This document shows, in pieces, positions 4,960 through 33,906 of a DNA stretch of 64,000 nucleotides (position 1 is the stretch's first letter; every line of letters starts with the position of its first letter). Position numbers and translations under genes: made by a program. A model generated the notes under the pieces. That model did not search any database and was not told the DNA's origin. It was given only the letters and a program-made list of their open reading frames with translations. The stretch covers positions 1-64,000 of the forward strand of contig NZ_WBVO01000011.1 of NCBI RefSeq assembly GCF_008933115.1. Reading direction: 5' to 3'. Origin of the DNA: Phaeocystidibacter luteus (GTDB lineage: Bacteria > Bacteroidota > Bacteroidia > Flavobacteriales > Schleiferiaceae).

Positions 4960-5895
4960 ATGAAAACAACTACCTACAAACACCTTCTACTCCTGTTCAT
5001 TTTCGGAGTAGTTGGCTCGATGACTTATGCTCAAGACGACTTACTTGCTGAGCTTGATGAAGGGGAAGAGCAAACGGTTTACACCTCTGCCACGTTCAAA
5101 GGGAGCCGAATAATCAACCTTCAGAGCACCGAACTGCCAGCTGAAGGTGTCGGTCAGTTCATCATTCTCCACAGATTCGGTTCATTGACGGAAGACCCAC
5201 TGTACGATCTGTTTGGATTAGATGTGGCTTCAGTGCGCCTCTCCTTCGATTATTCCATCAAAGATTATTTGAACGTTGGTGTTGGTCGTTCAAGCGGTAC
5301 CAAGGTTTACGACGGATGGGTGAAAGCTCGATTATACCGTCAATCCAGCGGAGCTGTGAACATGCCAGTGTCCATTCTTTACTACGGTTCCCTCAACGTG
5401 AATACAACGCGTTTTCCAGATGACGGCCTCGAGCACAAATTTGGCGAACGCCTTAGCTATGTGAACCAGATTATCGTGGGTCGCAAGTTCAGTGAAAGTT
5501 TCAGTATGGAGCTTGTTCCAACAGTTGTGCACTTCAATACTCGCCAGACGCGTGAACAACCCAATACCATTTTCGGTCTGGGTGTAGGAGGCAGAATCAA
5601 ACTGACGAACCGCGTGGCGATTACGGCAGATTACATGCTTCAAGCGCCGAGAAATACCAGATTGGTTGACGGTGTAGAAACGGCCTACAACAACTCGTTT
5701 TCCATCGGTGTGGATATCGAAACGGGAGGACACGTTTTCCAGCTTCACCTCACGAACTCACAGAGCATAAGTGATCCGTATTGGATGACTCAAACTCCTG
5801 GAAACTGGTTCGAAGGCGATATCTTCTTTGGATTCAATATCTCAAGGGTGTTTACGCTCAAGAAACCAAAGCGTATTGAGTCACCAGCTTGGTAG
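4960..5895 (+). CDS. DUF5777 family beta-barrel protein
   Basis: A 311-residue exported protein (signal peptide to about residue 25, cleavage after TYAQ) made of alternating amphipathic strands, with the QFIILHRFG, DPLYDLFGLD and SVRLSFDYSI segments typical of the Bacteroidota DUF5777 family. It is probably an outer-membrane barrel. The gene starts 5 nt after the YceI stop and completes the cytochrome/YceI/DUF5777 operon. The function is unknown; the context suggests it is the outer-membrane member of a small redox module. Confidence 0.85.
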   Translation: MKTTTYKHLLLLFIFGVVGSMTYAQDDLLAELDEGEEQTVYTSATFKGSRIINLQSTELPAEGVGQFIILHRFGSLTEDPLYDLFGLDVASVRLSFDYSIKDYLNVGVGRSSGTKVYDGWVKARLYRQSSGAVNMPVSILYYGSLNVNTTRFPDDGLEHKFGERLSYVNQIIVGRKFSESFSMELVPTVVHFNTRQTREQPNTIFGLGVGGRIKLTNRVAITADYMLQAPRNTRLVDGVETAYNNSFSIGVDIETGGHVFQLHLTNSQSISDPYWMTQTPGNWFEGDIFFGFNISRVFTLKKPKRIESPAW

Positions 5896-29266: not shown

Positions 29267-30055
29267 ATGAAGCACATCGATAGCGCAAAGAATCCCACCA
29301 TCAAGCAGGTGTTGAATTACATTGAAAAAGCTCGCGACCGCAAGCGCGACAATGTATTTGTGGTTGAGGGAATTAGAGAGAATGCCCGAGCGCTAGATTC
29401 AGGATATTCGGCGCAATGGCTGTTTTTTCCAGAATCGAGAATGACCGAACTGGAATTCAAGGTGGAAATGGGAAGAACAGAGGCTTTGGTTCACGCTTGT
29501 GGAGATGAGGCTTTCGACAAAATCGCCGTTCGCAAAGGTATACCCAACGTCGTAGGGATTTACGAGCGGCAAACTCAGGATCTGGTTGACTTAGTGCTTC
29601 CAGACAACGCCTTGGTCTTAGTCCTCGAAGCCATTGAAAAGCCCGGCAATCTCGGTGCTATTCTTCGAAGTGCGAGTGCAGCCGAAGTGGATGCAGTGTT
29701 ACTAGCGGATACTGTCGTAGATGCTTTTCACCCTCAAGTTGTGCGCAACAGCTTGGGCGGTTTTTTTGACGTTGATATGGTGTCGGCACCTTCTCAGGAA
29801 ATCGTGGAATATCTATCAGAGAAAGGTATACGCAAGGTTGTAACTACCCTAGAAGGTTCAACGCCACATTATCAAACGGATATGTCGGGATCAGCGGCAA
29901 TCGTAATGGGGGCAGAGGACACAGGGGTAACCGACATTTGGCTGGAGAATGCTGATGATCGCATCTTAATACCAATGGGCGGAGTAGTCGATTCGCTCAA
30001 TGTGAGCGTGGCTGCTGCCATCATGCTTTTTGAGGCGAAGCGCCAGCGCTCGTAG
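29267..30055 (+). CDS. TrmH/SpoU family RNA 2'-O-methyltransferase
   Basis: A 262-residue SPOUT methyltransferase. An N-terminal substrate-binding domain (FVVEGIRENARAL) precedes the knotted SAM domain with the three SpoU motifs: EKPGNLGAILRSA, VMGAEDTGV, and IPMGGVVDSLNVSVAAAI. The family modifies ribose 2'-OH in rRNA or tRNA; the target site cannot be read here. I prefer the ATG at 29267 to an in-frame TTG at 29258. No plus-strand terminator with a U-tract follows. Confidence 0.93.
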   Translation: MKHIDSAKNPTIKQVLNYIEKARDRKRDNVFVVEGIRENARALDSGYSAQWLFFPESRMTELEFKVEMGRTEALVHACGDEAFDKIAVRKGIPNVVGIYERQTQDLVDLVLPDNALVLVLEAIEKPGNLGAILRSASAAEVDAVLLADTVVDAFHPQVVRNSLGGFFDVDMVSAPSQEIVEYLSEKGIRKVVTTLEGSTPHYQTDMSGSAAIVMGAEDTGVTDIWLENADDRILIPMGGVVDSLNVSVAAAIMLFEAKRQRS

Positions 30056-30080
30056 CTGTTTACGAGTTTGGTAGGGGTAT

Positions 30081-30168
30081 AAAATGAAAGACCCGGGTAT
30101 TCCCCGGGCCTCACACCAAACCAATAAACCTAAGCTACCTGGGTAGGACCCCAGGCATTAGATGAGGC
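30081..30168 (-). ncRNA. Candidate structured small RNA
   Basis: An isolated intergenic unit read on the minus strand. A -7 box TATATTTG occupies 30175-30168. A 6-bp hairpin CCTGGG/CCCAGG follows (30155-30150 with 30143-30138), then an unpaired A/U/G-rich linker, then a 6-bp G+C hairpin (30108-30103 with 30097-30092, loop GAATA) with a U-rich tail (30091-30081) that looks like a terminator. GCCTCA at 30168-30163 can also pair with TGAGGC at 30113-30108. No reading frame fits. The -33 box is weak. It could instead be two independent hairpins. Confidence 0.5.
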
Positions 30169-30187
30169 AAATATATATGGAATTCCT

Positions 30188-30201
30188 ACACAATGTTGTG
30201 T
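30188..30201. promoter_or_regulatory. Inverted repeat upstream of the candidate small RNA
   Basis: ACACAA and TTGTGT form perfect 6-bp arms around a TG centre, 12 nt upstream of the TATATTTG box, a typical spot for an operator. No regulator is identified. Confidence 0.3.
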
Positions 30202-30414
30202 CAATATCAATTTTTTCTCCGAATGTTAAATTTATTTCACTTTCGTGTTTTCGGCGTTTATTTTGGGTTGAACGTGTAAATCTGGGCACTTTCTCAAGTG
30301 TCTGTAAATCTTTAGCTTAAAGTTCTTTACACCACGTAGATATCCATCCAAGCTCACTTGGACCAAATTTTACAACCCATAGAGTGTAAAGGCGAAGTGG
30401 AAGATCAGCACCTA
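30202..30414. other. Intergenic, no gene seen
   Basis: The stretch between the small-RNA promoter and the end of hvfC. A GTGTAAA-type word recurs (near 30273, 30310 and 30384, plus the inverse CTTTACAC near 30326). I see no coding frame and no clear terminator for the hvf operon. Confidence 0.4.
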
Positions 30415-31161
30415 TTATTCCGACTTGAAGATAAGTCGCTTCTCTTGGAGCTTATTGACGAAGTGTTGGAGGTTGCTCGACCAGCTTTCGTCGTTCGATA
30501 GACCCAAATGTAGCGCTGCTTTTGCGCCAGCCTGTTGAACGGAAAGTTCCTCACTGGAAATCACTTCCAAGAAAAGTGCGTAGAATATGGATATGTCCAT
30601 AAACTGAACTTTGCCTGTTTCTCTTTCTCGCCATGCTAGGGAAGCATATTGACCTGGCTGGGCATCAATCAGTTTAGACGGATGCGTTTTGTGTACCGGA
30701 TAAGTGAGGATCAGCAGTTGCATTTCTGGTTCCAACACAACTTTATCCCCTAGATTGGGTGCTGCATCACCATGCTTTGGAAGCTCCAAATCTGGCATCA
30801 TGAAGAGGAAAACCTCTTGCCATTCAAAACGAAGCAGGTCTATAAGTGCTGGGTACTTCGCGATAAGCTCCGCTTCATTTTCGGCAACATAGGCAATCAG
30901 CTCTTCCGGCATTCGCCAGATTTGCGGATGCTGACAGTAATGCGAAGAAAAGAACCGGTGTTGAAGATCTTCCCAGCCTTCGGTGACGTATTTCTGGGTA
31001 ATCGGGTAAGCCGTGTTCAGAGCGTTCACAACCACGTTGTATACGAGTCTCCTATAATGCGGAAGTCTGTCAAGTTTGGCACCTTCCAATTCCGTTTCAA
31101 TCCCATTTCTGCAATAGGTAGAGAGTGCGCTTTGTGCTTCTATGGTTGACTTACGAAGCAT
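30415..31161 (-). CDS. hvfC: HvfC/BufC-like MNIO partner protein (DUF2063)
   Basis: A 248-residue cytosolic protein with the DUF2063 N-terminal domain (LPHYRRLVYNVVVNALNTAYP, then QHPQIWRMPEELIAYV) labelled putative DNA-binding, followed by an alpha/beta C-terminal half. In MNIO RiPP pathways this partner binds the precursor and activates the DUF692 enzyme; it is not a transcription factor. Its ATG at 31161 lies inside the last 11 nt of hvfB, so translation is coupled. Last gene of the ECF-hvfABC operon. DNA binding is not supported by context. Confidence 0.88.
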   Translation of the reverse strand: MLRKSTIEAQSALSTYCRNGIETELEGAKLDRLPHYRRLVYNVVVNALNTAYPITQKYVTEGWEDLQHRFFSSHYCQHPQIWRMPEELIAYVAENEAELIAKYPALIDLLRFEWQEVFLFMMPDLELPKHGDAAPNLGDKVVLEPEMQLLILTYPVHKTHPSKLIDAQPGQYASLAWRERETGKVQFMDISIFYALFLEVISSEELSVQQAGAKAALHLGLSNDESWSSNLQHFVNKLQEKRLIFKSE

Positions 31162-32002
31162 GAGATGAGCTTGAAGAATTAACCCATTGTGAGGCAGCAA
31201 TGTCTCTCAATCGGTTGAGCTCGCCATTCAATTCGGCCATCTCGGGAAGGTTGAAATCACGCTCGAGTAATACGGGAACGGGTTTAGTACGCTCGGTCGC
31301 GTATTCAAAAAGCTCGTAAACCGGATCTATAATCGGCGCTCCATGTGTATCGATGATCAGATCTGGTTGCACTTTATGATGACCGGCCATGTGCATGTAG
31401 GCAACAGAATCGAGTGGAAGTCCGTCGATATATGCCTTTGGGTCGTAATTGTGATTGAAAGCGTTCACATACACATTATTCACATCAAGCAAAAGCTTGC
31501 ATCCCGACTCCTTTACGATAGCCGAAACGAAATCTACTTCGCTCATTTCGGCGGCAACGGGTGTGTAATAGGAAACATTTTCGAGAACCAGAGGTCGTGC
31601 GAGCATGTCTTGAACGATTCGGATTCTGTTCACGATATGGTCTACCGCATCCTGCCGAAACGGGATGGGAAGCAAGTCGTATAAATGTGCGTTGTCGCAC
31701 TTGCTATAGCTGAGGTGTTCGGAATAGAGCGGTACGTCGTATTCATCTAAGAACGCCTTAAGCTTGGCAATGAAATCGTAGTCCAATTCATCTGGACTAC
31801 CGATGCTCAGGGATAAACCGTGACAAAGGATGGGGTATTTGTCGGCAACTTGGTTCAGACGTTTTTTCCAGGTTCCACCAACGTCAATCCAATTTTCGGG
31901 AGCGAGTTCAACAAAGTCGGGACGGATTTCTGTTCCATCCAGTAACGCGTCGGTCATAGCTCGACGGTATCCAACTCCTATGGCTCCTTCGGTGATATTC
32001 AT
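31151..32002 (-). CDS. hvfB: HvfB/BufB-like multinuclear iron-dependent oxidase (MNIO, DUF692)
   Basis: A 283-residue TIM-barrel enzyme of the DUF692/UPF0276 family, which uses two or three iron ions to oxidise cysteine residues of ribosomal peptides. Conserved metal/active-site segments are FVELAPENWID, HGLSLSIGSPD, YSEHLSYSK, LLLDVNNVYVNAFNHNYDP and YMHMAGHHK. It follows the cysteine-repeat peptide gene hvfA by 68 nt and overlaps hvfC. In characterised relatives the products are thiooxazole or oxazolone/thioamide groups binding copper; the exact modification here is inferred from the HvfA sequence. Confidence 0.95.
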   Translation of the reverse strand: MNITEGAIGVGYRRAMTDALLDGTEIRPDFVELAPENWIDVGGTWKKRLNQVADKYPILCHGLSLSIGSPDELDYDFIAKLKAFLDEYDVPLYSEHLSYSKCDNAHLYDLLPIPFRQDAVDHIVNRIRIVQDMLARPLVLENVSYYTPVAAEMSEVDFVSAIVKESGCKLLLDVNNVYVNAFNHNYDPKAYIDGLPLDSVAYMHMAGHHKVQPDLIIDTHGAPIIDPVYELFEYATERTKPVPVLLERDFNLPEMAELNGELNRLRDIAASQWVNSSSSSHAS

Positions 32003-32023
32003 AATGATAGGGGAAAGAAAGCG

Positions 32024-32046
32024 AAGGTCGAGACGAACTCGACCTT
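32024..32046 (-). terminator. Intercistronic hairpin between hvfA and hvfB
   Basis: A perfect 9-bp stem, AAGGTCGAG (32046-32038) with CTCGACCTT (32032-32024) on the minus strand, loop TTCGT. It is followed by a pyrimidine-rich run (CGCTTTCTTTCC). The hairpin sits in the only sizeable gap downstream of hvfA. It could be a partial terminator or a 3' stability element giving more peptide than enzyme mRNA. Confidence 0.65.
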
Positions 32047-32070
32047 TACTTTATGAGTGAGTGTTGATTC

Positions 32071-32451
32071 TTACAGTCCGCAAGAACCTTCGCCACACTT
32101 GTGCTCTGTTGTGCGCTCTTCTGATGATTCAGAAGCTTCGCCGCACGATCCTTCACCGCACTTGTGCTCTGTAGTTCTCTCTTCAGTTGAAGCTTCAGAA
32201 GCTTCACCGCATGAACCTTCGCCGCACTTAGCCTCTTCAGATGAACGCTCTCCAGCCTCACCACAAGTCAATTCTAGACCGTTGATAACTGCACGTTCAG
32301 AGTGAAGAAGTTGTGCACGAATTTCAGATCCAGATCCGAGGTCTTCGGCTTGGAATACATTTTCGGCATTGATAGTACCGCTGAGAAGAAGTCCTCCTGC
32401 GAGAAGAGTTCCACCTGCGATAAGCTTTGATGTTTTGTTGCGATTTTTCAT
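32071..32451 (-). CDS. hvfA: HvfA-like exported RiPP precursor with KCGEGSCG repeats
   Basis: A 126-residue precursor peptide. A Sec-type signal (about 1-29, cleavage after TINA) is followed by a short conserved segment (NVFQAEDLGSGSEIRAQLL) and a C-terminal low-complexity tail with three copies of KCGEGSCG (from residues 75, 97 and 118) separated by Ser/Glu/Thr spacers. Cysteines are at 63, 76, 81, 98, 103, 119 and 124. The unit matches the EGKCGEGKCG motif of HvfA peptides modified by MNIO enzymes. Being exported, it probably acts as a periplasmic metal (copper) scavenger. The gene is small and repetitive, so recombination may change copy number. Confidence 0.92.
   Translation of the reverse strand: MKNRNKTSKLIAGGTLLAGGLLLSGTINAENVFQAEDLGSGSEIRAQLLHSERAVINGLELTCGEAGERSSEEAKCGEGSCGEASEASTEERTTEHKCGEGSCGEASESSEERTTEHKCGEGSCGL
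32074..32240 (-). repeat. In-frame tandem repeats inside hvfA
   Basis: The DNA coding for the three KCGEGSCG units and spacers repeats at 66 and 63 nt. Codon choice differs slightly between copies, so they are not recent perfect duplications. Confidence 0.8.
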
Positions 32452-32498
32452 AGCTGCGTGTTAAAAATGATTAATTGTTATTACGATTCTAGTTCATC

Positions 32499-32756
32499 CT
32501 AATCTTTCTGGGTAGAGGACAATTCTGACCTCCAGCGATTTTTGGCTTCTTTCGAAGCATTCACTTCTCGCTTGCCCTTCAACTCATCTACGTAGCTAGT
32601 GAGCTTTTGGTTTTGTAAAGCGAAAGTTTTGCAGAAAGCGCACATTTGAATGTGCACCCAGAGACGTAGGCGTTGACCGAGACTCGCTCTTCCTTCTTCC
32701 TTTTTAATCGACAGCTCAGATGCTTCCTTGCATGTATAGAACATCTTGTGGAACAT
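32499..32756 (-). CDS. Zinc-finger anti-sigma-like protein
   Basis: An 85-residue protein without a membrane helix. CKEASELS near the start and HIQMCAFC (His35-x3-Cys39-x2-Cys42) reproduce the zf-HC2 zinc-binding pattern of anti-sigma factors. It begins 8 nt after the ECF sigma stop and precedes hvfA by 47 nt. I infer that it binds and controls the upstream sigma factor; lacking a membrane anchor, it would sense a cytosolic signal such as metal or redox state. The start at 32756 is the first ATG; an ATG four codons later is possible. Confidence 0.85.
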   Translation of the reverse strand: MFHKMFYTCKEASELSIKKEEGRASLGQRLRLWVHIQMCAFCKTFALQNQKLTSYVDELKGKREVNASKEAKNRWRSELSSTQKD

Positions 32757-32764
32757 TTTACCTT

Positions 32765-33355
32765 CTATTTGGCATCAAACATTTTTAACTCATTGAAATA
32801 AGACTGATCGAGGCAGTCTCTCAACTGTAGCTTTGCTCGGTGTATCAAAACCCAGTAGTTCGACGGGGTGATATCCAGCACCTTACAGATTTCTTCAGAT
32901 TCTTCATCTTCCAGATATTTCATCCTGAAAGCCGAAGCTCCTTTTCCCTTTAGGTTGTCAATGCACCCATTGAGTGCATCACCAAGCTGACCACGTTCCA
33001 CGACTTCGTCGGGTCGTTCTGACCAAGGCTCGGGTCTTTTGTCGGGAATCCATCCACCCGTTTCATCGAAGAAGGCATCTAAACTCACTTCTTTTCTTTG
33101 AGAAGCTTCATCTTCACTTTGCCTTGTTCGGGTCTTCCGGTAGAAATCAATAATCTTATTTCTGAGAATGCGCATCAGCCATGTCTTGTCAGACGCTTCC
33201 TCCTTAAAGGTGTCCAACGACTTAAATGCGCTCAAGAGGGTTTCTTGTACGAGATCCTCCGCAGTTTCCCGGCTGCTCGTTCGCTGATATGCAAACCGGA
33301 AGAGTAAATCTCCGTACTCATCCACCCAATGCGATGCTCTTTCTGAAGGGCTCAC
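32765..33355 (-). CDS. ECF-type RNA polymerase sigma factor of the hvf operon
   Basis: A 196-residue sigma-70-family protein. Region 2 is visible as DLVQETLLSAFKSL and TWLMRILRNKIIDFYRK, and region 4 as FRMKYLEDEESEEICKVLDI followed by a helix-turn-helix (SNYWVLIHRAKLQLRDCL). The start codon is GTG at 33355, with no ATG nearby. It is the first gene of the minus-strand series sigma, anti-sigma, hvfA, hvfB, hvfC. MNIO/bufferin clusters elsewhere are also run by ECF factors, so it probably controls its own operon in response to metal stress. Confidence 0.93.
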   Translation of the reverse strand: MSPSERASHWVDEYGDLLFRFAYQRTSSRETAEDLVQETLLSAFKSLDTFKEEASDKTWLMRILRNKIIDFYRKTRTRQSEDEASQRKEVSLDAFFDETGGWIPDKRPEPWSERPDEVVERGQLGDALNGCIDNLKGKGASAFRMKYLEDEESEEICKVLDITPSNYWVLIHRAKLQLRDCLDQSYFNELKMFDAK

Positions 33356-33426
33356 GTTAGAATTGATTTGTGTTATAATTGGTGAAAAGGTAGGATTTTC
33401 AGCCGACGGGCAAGCAATAAGAATCT

Positions 33427-33434
33427 TACATTTG
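33427..33434 (+). promoter_or_regulatory. -7 promoter element of the haem-binding gene
   Basis: TACATTTG matches TAnnTTTG and lies 10 nt before the ATG at 33445. No TTTG is found at the normal -33 distance. Confidence 0.45.
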
Positions 33435-33444
33435 AGCTTCTTAA

Positions 33445-33906
33445 ATGAAACAGAACATGAAGAAAATAGTACGCGGTACCCTCCTAGGCCTGCTCATCGC
33501 CCTTGTTATAATGCAGTTCATCCAACCTGATAAAACGAATCCAGAGTCTGATCCCAGCCAGGATTTTATCACCATGAACTCGATTGACGGCGAAATAGGG
33601 CATCTTCTTAAAACGGCTTGTTACGACTGCCATTCTAACAATACAACTTGGCCTTGGTATTCCTCAGTAGCGCCTTTCTCTTATGTGGTTGCCCACCATG
33701 TAGAAGAGGGAAGAGAGCACTTGAACTTCTCAGTTTGGGGTACTTATTCGGCTGAACGTGCAAATCACAAGCTCGAAGAGTGTGTAGAAGAAATTGTAGA
33801 AGGCGAAATGCCAATGGCGGGTTACGTTGCGCTTCACAGCGAGGCTGACCTAACCGAGGAGCAATTGGAAATGCTCATGGCTAAGTTCGCAGAACTTCAG
33901 CAGTAA
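33445..33906 (+). CDS. Haem-binding domain protein (Haem_bd family)
   Basis: A 153-residue protein with an N-terminal membrane helix (about 8-26) and a periplasmic domain carrying one CxxCH motif (CYDCH, Cys59-Cys62-His63) followed by SNNTTWPWYSSVAPFSY, the hallmark of the Bacteroidota haem-binding domain. A downstream EGEMPMAGY supplies a candidate axial Met. It probably handles electrons or haem at the envelope. It is divergent from the ECF/hvf operon, with 89 nt between, so co-regulation with metal stress is conceivable but unproven. An internal ATG at 33457 is an alternative start. Confidence 0.88.
   Translation: MKQNMKKIVRGTLLGLLIALVIMQFIQPDKTNPESDPSQDFITMNSIDGEIGHLLKTACYDCHSNNTTWPWYSSVAPFSYVVAHHVEEGREHLNFSVWGTYSAERANHKLEECVEEIVEGEMPMAGYVALHSEADLTEEQLEMLMAKFAELQQ

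Follow-up and report, generated by a model that had tools for sequence, protein, structure and literature searches.

We analyzed a 64,000-nt stretch of Phaeocystidibacter luteus (Bacteroidota, Flavobacteriales; contig NZ_WBVO01000011.1, positions 1 to 64,000), here called the window, which contains a five-gene operon on the minus strand (33355-30415). Its closely spaced genes code, in this order, for an extracytoplasmic function (ECF) sigma factor, a zinc-associated anti-sigma (ZAS) protein, a precursor peptide (HvfA), a multinuclear nonheme iron-dependent oxidative (MNIO) enzyme (HvfB), and its partner protein (HvfC). We consider it likely that these genes form a captophorin operon of the oxazolin type, here in Bacteroidota, under the control of a thiol switch resembling RsrA and MseR. 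Operons of this kind have been described in Haemophilus and Neisseria; what is new here is a hairpin between hvfA and hvfB, a putative GTAAGA-N15-CGTC promoter dyad, and a congener that keeps the switch after the probable loss of hvfABC.

An earlier note on this DNA, made from the sequence alone, had proposed an operon of the HvfABC type for an MNIO metallophore, a ribosomally synthesized and posttranslationally modified peptide (RiPP), in Bacteroidota, and both the Pfam and NCBIfam families and the relatives of the locus support this. All five genes do lie on the minus strand, and the GTG start that had been given to the sigma factor gene is confirmed (the alignment gives GTG in one congener and TTG in another). 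The 11-nt overlap of hvfB and hvfC (31151-31161) also holds if hvfC begins at the ATG at 31161, the alternative start being a TTG at 31200. A scan of named genomes with HvfB gave 183 relatives, of which the best 80 were kept; by title, nearly all are Bacteroidota or Ignavibacteria, and Chitinophaga is over-represented (22 of the 80).

Maturase, partner protein, and precursor

HvfB matches PF05114 with 342 bits, the sole match to this family found in the genome, and NF003818 (HvfB family MNIO-type RiPP peptide maturase) with 389.9 bits, above the cut-off of 360. Other MNIO classes were tried and rejected: the bufferin enzyme BufB (280.6 bits, cut-off 310, and no DUF2282 in the precursor), the methanobactin enzyme MbnB (56 bits, cut-off 325), and the chryseobasin enzyme ChrH, listed in NCBIfam as "chryseobactin maturase" (47.8 bits, cut-off 600). 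The nearest solved structure by sequence is 3BWW (229.5 bits). By motif, GYRR 11-14 and ERDF 247-250 of HvfB match Arg15/Arg16 and Asp249/Phe250 of FonB; LLERDF is found in 74 of 81 HvfBs, with LLERDY or LLERDL in the other 7, and GxGYRR in 3 of the 81. HvfC matches PF09836 (DUF2063, 48.2 bits) and PF22106 (NGO1945 C-terminal, 38.4 bits), both above cut-off, and its nearest solved structure by sequence is gonococcal NGO1945 (PDB 3DEE, E value of 2.9e-5). Judged by its families, the combination of HvfB, a PME1-type partner, and a KCGExKCG-type precursor is that of a captophorin/HvfABC (oxazolin-type) operon.

The precursor carries the three KCGEGSCG units (repeat family D3) that had been seen before, plus a seventh cysteine upstream of them in ELTCG, and it matches NF050137 (KCGExKCG_twice) over three stretches with 44.7 bits, above the cut-off of 19.5. 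Its putative Sec signal peptide, MKNRNKTSKLIAGGTLLAGGLLLSGTINA, was read by eye only. The signal region is followed by a leader motif, LGSGSEIRAQL in the window and [LM]G[STN][GA]xx[VILM]Rxx[LIVM] in general, which is present in 78 of 80 precursors (the window and 79 loci; L071 was dropped, as no hvfA was found there). The exceptions are L067, which is cut by the contig end, and L078, and by eye the gonococcal precursor has no LGSGxEVR either. The motif suggests itself as a candidate site for recognition of the precursor by HvfC. The precursor of Cytophaga aurantiaca (L078, 5627-5935), which lacks the motif, has a lipobox-like FSSCS and is possibly lipid anchored.

Lysine stands directly before 388 of the 473 cysteines in 87 precursor open reading frames (the sequences of L085 and L002 are identical). 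L002, a metagenome-assembled genome titled "Flavobacteriia bacterium," has the same precursor as the congener G233 (L085), and therefore the window and L002 share a genus. These two are the only ones among the 80 precursors in which Lys precedes less than half of the Cys-Gly cysteines: the preceding residues are T-K-S-K-S-K-S in the window and T followed by eight S in L002, which keeps the operon with no Lys at all. One could argue from the prevalence of Lys, and from the isolation of these two precursors, that only the KCG cysteines are modified and that the EGSCG cysteines remain free thiols, acting as plain metal ligands or redox cysteines. However, the retention of the operon in L002 stands against this, as do the results with FonBC, which tolerated Ala, Arg, and Thr before Cys and was severely impaired by Phe and Glu (PMC13097082, section 12). 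From this tolerance, Ser before Cys is probably accepted here as well, although Ser is not among the variants in the FonBC sections of that paper, which counts against our view, and we regard modification of the KCG cysteines alone as unlikely. The window repeat is a mild variant of the known type, and the idea that it is foreign to described clusters is not supported, QGSCG and EGSCG being present in gonococcal HvfA too. Being poor in Lys, it offers a natural test of which residues HvfB accepts before a modified cysteine.

Sigma factor and anti-sigma factor

The sigma factor matches Sigma70_r2 (67.8 bits) and Sigma70_r4_2 (34 bits), both above the Pfam cut-offs. Its neighbor had been described as a soluble zf-HC2-like protein, of which the first part stands, as it is a small soluble ZAS; as to the second, no Pfam family matched up to an E value of 10, zf-HC2 included, and the NCBIfam antisigmaE model NF052368 gave 44.1 bits, under its cut-off of 50. 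The ligand set Cys9, His35, Cys39, and Cys42 does not vary among 36 aligned sequences, those of the window and of 35 loci out of the 48 with a complete operon, and aligns with that of the gonococcal and Acinetobacter ZAS proteins. The pattern Hx3Cx2C, with an N-terminal Cys 26 residues ahead of the His, is that of redox ZAS proteins of the RsrA/MseR/HrsE type, and Hx3Cx2C is strictly kept in 47 of the 48 complete loci, L062 being one residue longer. MseR has the ligands Cys4, His30, Cys34, and Cys37, with the same 26/4/3 spacing as the window protein and RsrA (PMC2893595).

An AlphaFold2 model of the protein (mean predicted local distance difference test score of 86.3, predicted template modeling score of 0.62) gave 11 top Foldseek matches, all of them sigma/anti-sigma entries (ChrR, RsiW, MucA, and RslA) with root mean square deviations of 1.4 to 1.8 Å and E values of 1.4 to 3.3. 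UQCRH, the single sequence match among solved structures (E value of 0.0023), was taken as chance. The protein belongs to a known type of regulator and is likely to be an RsrA/MseR-like thiol switch, and the opinion that a soluble zinc-finger regulator has no counterpart in described clusters gives way to precedents in Neisseria, in Haemophilus, and on an Acinetobacter plasmid.

Gene order and distribution

A search for the same gene order had been suggested in the earlier note, for Flavobacteriales. ECF-ZAS-hvfA-hvfB-hvfC is complete and on one strand in 48 of the 80 loci (36 of 58 without Chitinophaga), with the culturable Chitinophaga arvensicola (L013) and C. eiseniae Ak56 (L011) as examples of relatives that have all five genes, so that the five-gene set goes beyond chance and the locus is ordinary for its kind. 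Two more loci are cut off upstream, and the remaining 30 have no adjacent ECF-ZAS pair; of these, L003, L017, and L028 have less than 2 kb 5' of hvfA, and L010 has a fragment of the ZAS gene. A search for ECF homologues (E value of ≤1e-25) that covered 20 of the 30 found them in 4 of the 20 genomes, each with a ZAS gene adjoining. In L010 (Chitinophaga niastensis), the fragment (5356-5481) lies 5' of hvfA without an ECF gene and looks like decay, and this genome has a separate ECF-ZAS pair elsewhere. In 38 of the 80 loci, the gene after hvfC is DoxX-like, and the one example scanned is DoxX with 59.4 bits. A DoxX-family match elsewhere in the window genome was rejected as HvfX because the protein, of 381 aa, is too large.

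Some of these results weigh against the assignment. HvfC reaches 111.5 bits with the equivalog NF050145, under the cut-off of 142, and the best NCBIfam model for the sigma factor, TIGR02943 (Sigma70_famx1), gives 148 bits, under 162.2; to these is added the antisigmaE score given above. HvfA scores 29.6 bits with the strict equivalog NF050188 (cut-off, 95), for which reason we file it under the wider HvfA repeat family only. The absence of a DoxX gene after hvfC in the window and the 30 loci without a regulatory pair belong on the same side.

The distribution of HvfB is patchy. NF003818 was matched in 26 of 395 genomes of the phylum at an E value of ≤0.001 (7 above cut-off), PF05114 in 24 of 296 genomes of the order (12 with a match of >300 bits), and the window HvfB itself in 5 of 88 genomes of the family at an E value of ≤1e-10. 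Such precursors are placed mostly in Pseudomonadota by PMC12452194, and "Bacteroid" is absent from the main texts of PMC12452194, PMC13097082, and PMC13419390. A literature search on MNIO enzymes, Bacteroidota, copper, and RiPPs led to chryseobasin-type enzymes, and one on DUF692, Bacteroidetes, and sigma factors led to the paper on the NGO1945 structure (PMC2954202), where one DUF2063 protein from bacteroidetes is counted.

Hairpin between hvfA and hvfB

The hairpin in the window has a folding energy of -18.2 kcal/mol and a z score of -5.76 (200 dinucleotide shuffles). Over the same 80 stretches used for the precursors, hvfA-hvfB junctions have a z score below -2 in 74 cases and a stem of at least 7 bp in 69; the exceptions by z score are L021, L038, L044, L058, L066, and L067. 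Control junctions, with those too short or cut by contig ends dropped, behave otherwise: the corresponding counts are 8 and 4 of 44 between ZAS and hvfA, 7 and 9 of 75 in the region 3' of hvfC, and 1 and 0 of 49 around the start of the ECF frame. A second finder, requiring stems of 8 bp or more and a minimum of five T, returned 62 of the 80 junctions; the control counts were 7 of 49 (3' of ZAS), 6 of 75 (3' of hvfC), and 1 of 50 (3' of ECF). With any accepted stem it returned 77 (55 of the 58 outside Chitinophaga). The stems differ in sequence (73 distinct first 8-mers among the 77), so what is conserved is the structure and not the sequence. Hairpins also occupy the gonococcal junction (12-bp stem, z score of -2.4) and those of two Moraxellaceae plasmids (z scores of -4.9 and -3.8), which are near-identical and thus not independent. 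The gap between the two genes is 68 nt in the window, with a median of 65.5 nt in the 80 stretches, and consists mostly of the hairpin.

The hairpin is probably an attenuator that sets the ratio of precursor to enzyme, that is, of hvfA to hvfBC. Attenuators between precursor and enzyme genes are known from other RiPP operons, so that the novelty lies in where the hairpin stands and not in the idea itself. Many of the hairpins, namely the 62 with a T tract, resemble intrinsic terminators, and they could be read as full terminators, with hvfBC transcribed from a promoter of its own as a second transcription unit. We find this quite improbable: the gap is short and largely taken up by the hairpin, and in the meningococcus, with rpoE overexpressed, reverse transcription-PCR spans NMB2140 to NMB2144 (PMC2893595), the gonococcal gap having a hairpin too. 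To all appearances, it has not been noted earlier that the operons of relatives share the hairpin. A terminator, hairpin, or stem-loop is nowhere mentioned in the main texts of PMC12452194, PMC13097082, and PMC2893595, the word "terminator" is absent from those of PMC10304878 and PMC7907618, and the available part of PMC13419390 has no "hairpin," "transcription terminator," or "transcriptional terminator." As an attenuator, the hairpin offers a concrete and easily testable control element.

Putative promoter dyad

The sequence GTAAGA-N15-CGTC lies 5' of the ECF gene in two of three congeners, the window and G105. In core bases and spacing it agrees with the sigmaE consensus of Neisseria (GTMAGBWTT, 12-13 nt, CGTCTAAH; PMC2893595), and some positions differ. 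The dyad also occurs in G105 30 nt before a Thioredoxin_9 gene (PF14595, 138 bits) and, exactly, 5' of the Thioredoxin_9 orthologues in the window genome and G233, that is, in three of three congeners; shuffling of those orthologue regions (20,000 mononucleotide shuffles) produced the dyad in 0 and about 2. Both orthologues had been missed by a genus scan with GTAAGAT. The weight of the dyad comes from its position and from these thioredoxin orthologues, which were not picked by the pattern. Together with the Neisseria precedent and the conserved gene order, the upstream dyad makes likely the self-regulation by the linked sigma factor that had been proposed before.

Other results speak against the dyad as a promoter. 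It is degenerate 5' of the ECF gene in the congener G233, and the genome-wide scan with GTAAGAT found 3, 3, and 3 sites in the three genomes, versus 4, 0, and 7 with the reversed control. In the window, its GTAA overlaps, by eye, the probable -7 box of the divergent gene at 33445-33906. Among 49 loci across lineages, 3, the window included, have the dyad 5' of ECF with at most one mismatch, where 3.2 are expected, and since there is no excess outside the genus, we claim the dyad for the genus only. The best matches have two or three mismatches in five loci of the family and three upstream of gonococcal hvfA; the two Moraxellaceae plasmids have, upstream of hvfA, a dyad site with one mismatch and CGTCTA. 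A de novo search for a two-box promoter upstream of ECF (a subset of 36 of the 49 loci) scored 153 versus 131 to 141 in three shuffles, and its T-rich consensus was disbelieved; a count of dyads upstream of ECF was likewise set aside, being swamped by A/T runs and related Chitinophaga loci. In G233, a ZIP-type transporter gene (by eye; L143, 1554-2252) begins 28 nt after a dyad, a single case that may be chance.

Redox or metal as the trigger

Within the family, 8 of the 88 genomes have an ECF match (E value of ≤1e-30), and in four of them (G000, G233, G649, and G007) HvfB is present. The others are G105 and, in another genus of the family (g4), three of seven genomes, so that the ECF-ZAS pair also stands without hvf genes, a point against the reading preferred here. 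In G021, HvfB is present and the ECF-ZAS pair next to it is diverged. In the three g4 genomes (L125 to L127), two small genes come directly after the pair, and by eye their products look secreted and of thioredoxin fold. Of those scanned, the second in L125 matches AhpC/TSA with 88.4 bits, the first reaches thioredoxin families below cut-off only, and the first in L126 matched none. In G105 (L117, 8896-9776), the pair occupies the same site, between SpoU and the divergent Haem_bd gene, and hvfABC is absent; a search of the 288-nt gap for a remnant of hvf gave a strong match only to a conserved noncoding element.

In the ECF tree, one group joins the window and L002 (support, 100/94), then G105 (100/100), and then the hvf-linked G649 and G007 (99/94). 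As G105 is nested among hvf-linked ECFs, hvfABC was most likely lost there, which makes this genome a test case for other targets of the switch. The g4 pairs join the long-branched, hvf-linked G021 (97/94) and, on this placement, may descend from an hvf-linked pair.

Invariant ZAS ligands and linked genes of the thioredoxin type lead us to favor thiol or oxidative stress as the trigger over direct sensing of Cu or Zn, and for the same reasons the copper- or zinc-responsive pathway of the earlier note now appears less likely. In a dedicated Cu/Zn-buffering response, the ZAS would itself sense the metal, and the sigma factor would be freed when its Cys3His site loses zinc or has it displaced by copper. 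Several points favor this: homology identifies it as a metal site, copper is thiophilic and might attack these cysteines, copper and gold induce the related gig operon in Cupriavidus (PMC10304878), which also counts against a redox trigger, and a ZIP-type gene follows one dyad in G233, as mentioned above. Yet the gig regulator RsqA is predicted to be membrane bound and is of another type (PMC10304878), the genes linked to this kind of ECF-ZAS pair or to the dyad are of the thioredoxin type, and expression of Haemophilus rpoE2 increases with hypochlorous acid and peroxide (PMC7907618). We therefore hold direct metal sensing to be unlikely. Against a thiol- or oxidative-stress trigger, meningococcal sigmaE gave no response to peroxide, diamide, or singlet oxygen (PMC2893595), so the redox trigger is uncertain even in the closest model.

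Proposed mechanism

Starting from the observed genes, families, gene order, hairpin, ligand conservation, dyads, and absence of hvfABC in a congener, we draw on characterized relatives to infer how the peptide is modified and exported and binds copper, how oxidation triggers the switch, and the whole of the regulation. In unstressed cells, the ZAS, with zinc held by Cys9/His35/Cys39/Cys42, would sequester the ECF sigma factor. Thiol oxidation under hypochlorite, disulfide, or copper stress would make the ZAS release it, and the sigma factor would then use GTAAGA-N15-CGTC promoters to transcribe the operon in which it is encoded and a minimum of one gene of the thioredoxin family. The hairpin 3' of hvfA may halt or stabilize most transcripts, which would leave the precursor in excess over HvfBC. 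HvfC would present the precursor, perhaps via the conserved LGSGxEVRxxL segment, and HvfB would convert its Cys-Gly cysteines to 5-thiooxazoles in the cytoplasm. The peptide is predicted to leave via Sec and could then bind Cu(I) in the periplasm.

Comparison with known systems

The Neisseria rpoE operon (NMB2140-NMB2145/NGO1943-NGO1948; gonophorin) has the same five components as the window. In the meningococcus, sigmaE (NMB2144) and its small, cytoplasmic ZAS anti-sigma factor MseR (NMB2145) form an autoregulated operon with NMB2140-2143 (PMC2893595), and in the account of gonococcal NGO1943-1948 the sigma factor and the DUF2063 protein are accompanied by DUF692, DoxX, and a periplasmic protein (PMC2954202). 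Both Neisseria, as seen in the gonococcal stretch, and the window have a hairpin between the precursor and maturase genes, but Neisseria has hvfABC ahead of sigma and ZAS, with DoxX in the operon, whereas the window has sigma and ZAS first and no DoxX. The order hvfA-hvfB-hvfC-ECF-ZAS, unlike that of Bacteroidota, is found in the gonococcal stretch and the two Moraxellaceae plasmids; in the Moraxella plasmid a transposase gene separates hvfB and hvfC, and the Acinetobacter plasmid has a zf-HC2 gene beside hvfABC and an ECF gene.

In Haemophilus influenzae, RpoE2 and the 67-aa cytoplasmic ZAS HrsE control the doxX operon and msrAB, the stress being hypochlorite, and the authors liken the doxX operon to the Neisseria SigE regulon (PMC7907618). 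By our own reading of two papers, this doxX operon is the hvf operon (oxazolin). It has HvfABC like the window, together with the DoxX-like HvfX, and its HvfA has the AEGKCGEGKCG motif three times. The genes for the regulators are close to msrAB, seemingly apart from the doxX operon, and Lys is present in all repeats, unlike in the window. The fontiphorin system (FonABC), with its PME1-dependent MNIO and EGKCG-type precursor, belongs, as the window operon probably does, to the captophorin class, a family with 5-thiooxazole chemistry and Cu binding, and its two-repeat FonA substrate lost 8 Da; it comes from Pseudomonadota, its repeat is EGKCG, and the main text mentions no anti-sigma factor (PMC13097082). 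Streptomyces sigmaR-RsrA shares with the window a soluble ZAS with the same ligand spacing, and its regulon includes the thioredoxin system; captophorin genes are not mentioned in the account of it in PMC2893595. Finally, Cupriavidus gigPABT-rpoQ-rsqA combines GigA, an endonuclease-IV-like metal-binding protein, with DUF2063 and DoxX-like proteins and an ECF factor nearby, is induced by Cu and Au, and plays a minor part in copper resistance. It differs in its predicted membrane-bound anti-sigma factor and divergent gene pair, and GigP has 4 Cys, with no Cys-Gly repeats in the description given there (PMC10304878).

Gene layout and neighboring features

The coordinates are collected in Table 1. 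The divergent PF14376 gene adjoins the ECF gene in all three congeners. An Rfam search of 29900-33600, with E values up to 0.1, gave no match.

TABLE 1 Features of the probable captophorin operon and its surroundings in the window
Feature	Coordinates	Strand	Details
ECF sigma factor, probable autoregulator	32765..33355	minus	196 aa, GTG start
Soluble ZAS-type anti-sigma factor	32499..32756	minus	85 aa; 8 nt after ECF gene
hvfA, exported-type precursor	32071..32451	minus	126 aa, 7 Cys
hvfB, MNIO (DUF692) maturase	31151..32002	minus	283 aa
hvfC, DUF2063 + NGO1945 C-terminal (RiPP recognition element-type) partner	30415..31161	minus	ATG start taken
Terminator-like hairpin, hvfA-hvfB gap	32018..32052	minus	core stem 32046-32024 listed terminator-like
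Putative ECF promoter dyad GTAAGA-N15-CGTC	33405..33429	minus	5' of sigma gene
Haem-binding-domain protein, divergent	33445-33906	plus	PF14376, 154 bits

A small-RNA-like element (30081-30175, minus strand) lies between hvfC and a convergent SpoU-type methylase gene. A part of 32 nt (GGTAGCTTAGGTTTATTGGTTTGGTGTGAGGC) is, by eye, invariant in five genomes of the family, with identities of 94% in G233 (105 nt), 90.5% in G105 (95 nt), 87% in G007 (53 nt), and 97% in G649 (36 nt). A variable terminator-like hairpin stands 3' of the element, and in the window a TATATTTG box stands 5' of it. The element is retained in G105, where hvfABC is gone.

Implications

The characterized captophorins in the papers cited here come from Pseudomonadota. 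Three features make the choice between a redox and a metal trigger testable in harmless laboratory bacteria: a self-contained operon that begins with the sigma gene and is present in many records of Bacteroidota and Ignavibacteria, the congener that kept the switch and most likely lost hvfABC, and the dyad ahead of a thioredoxin gene. We put forward, tentatively and with somewhat more doubt than conviction, that the captophorin operons of Bacteroidota, Ignavibacteriota, and Pseudomonadota share an RsrA-type thiol switch and a hairpin 3' of the precursor gene that sets or tunes the ratio of precursor to enzyme, a combination absent from the cited papers, and that a promoter like GTAAGA-N15-CGTC serves Neisseria and at least one genus of Bacteroidota, thioredoxin-type genes included. 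If this shared two-level control is true, copper binding would be one arm of a response to thiol oxidation and not a metal resistance system.

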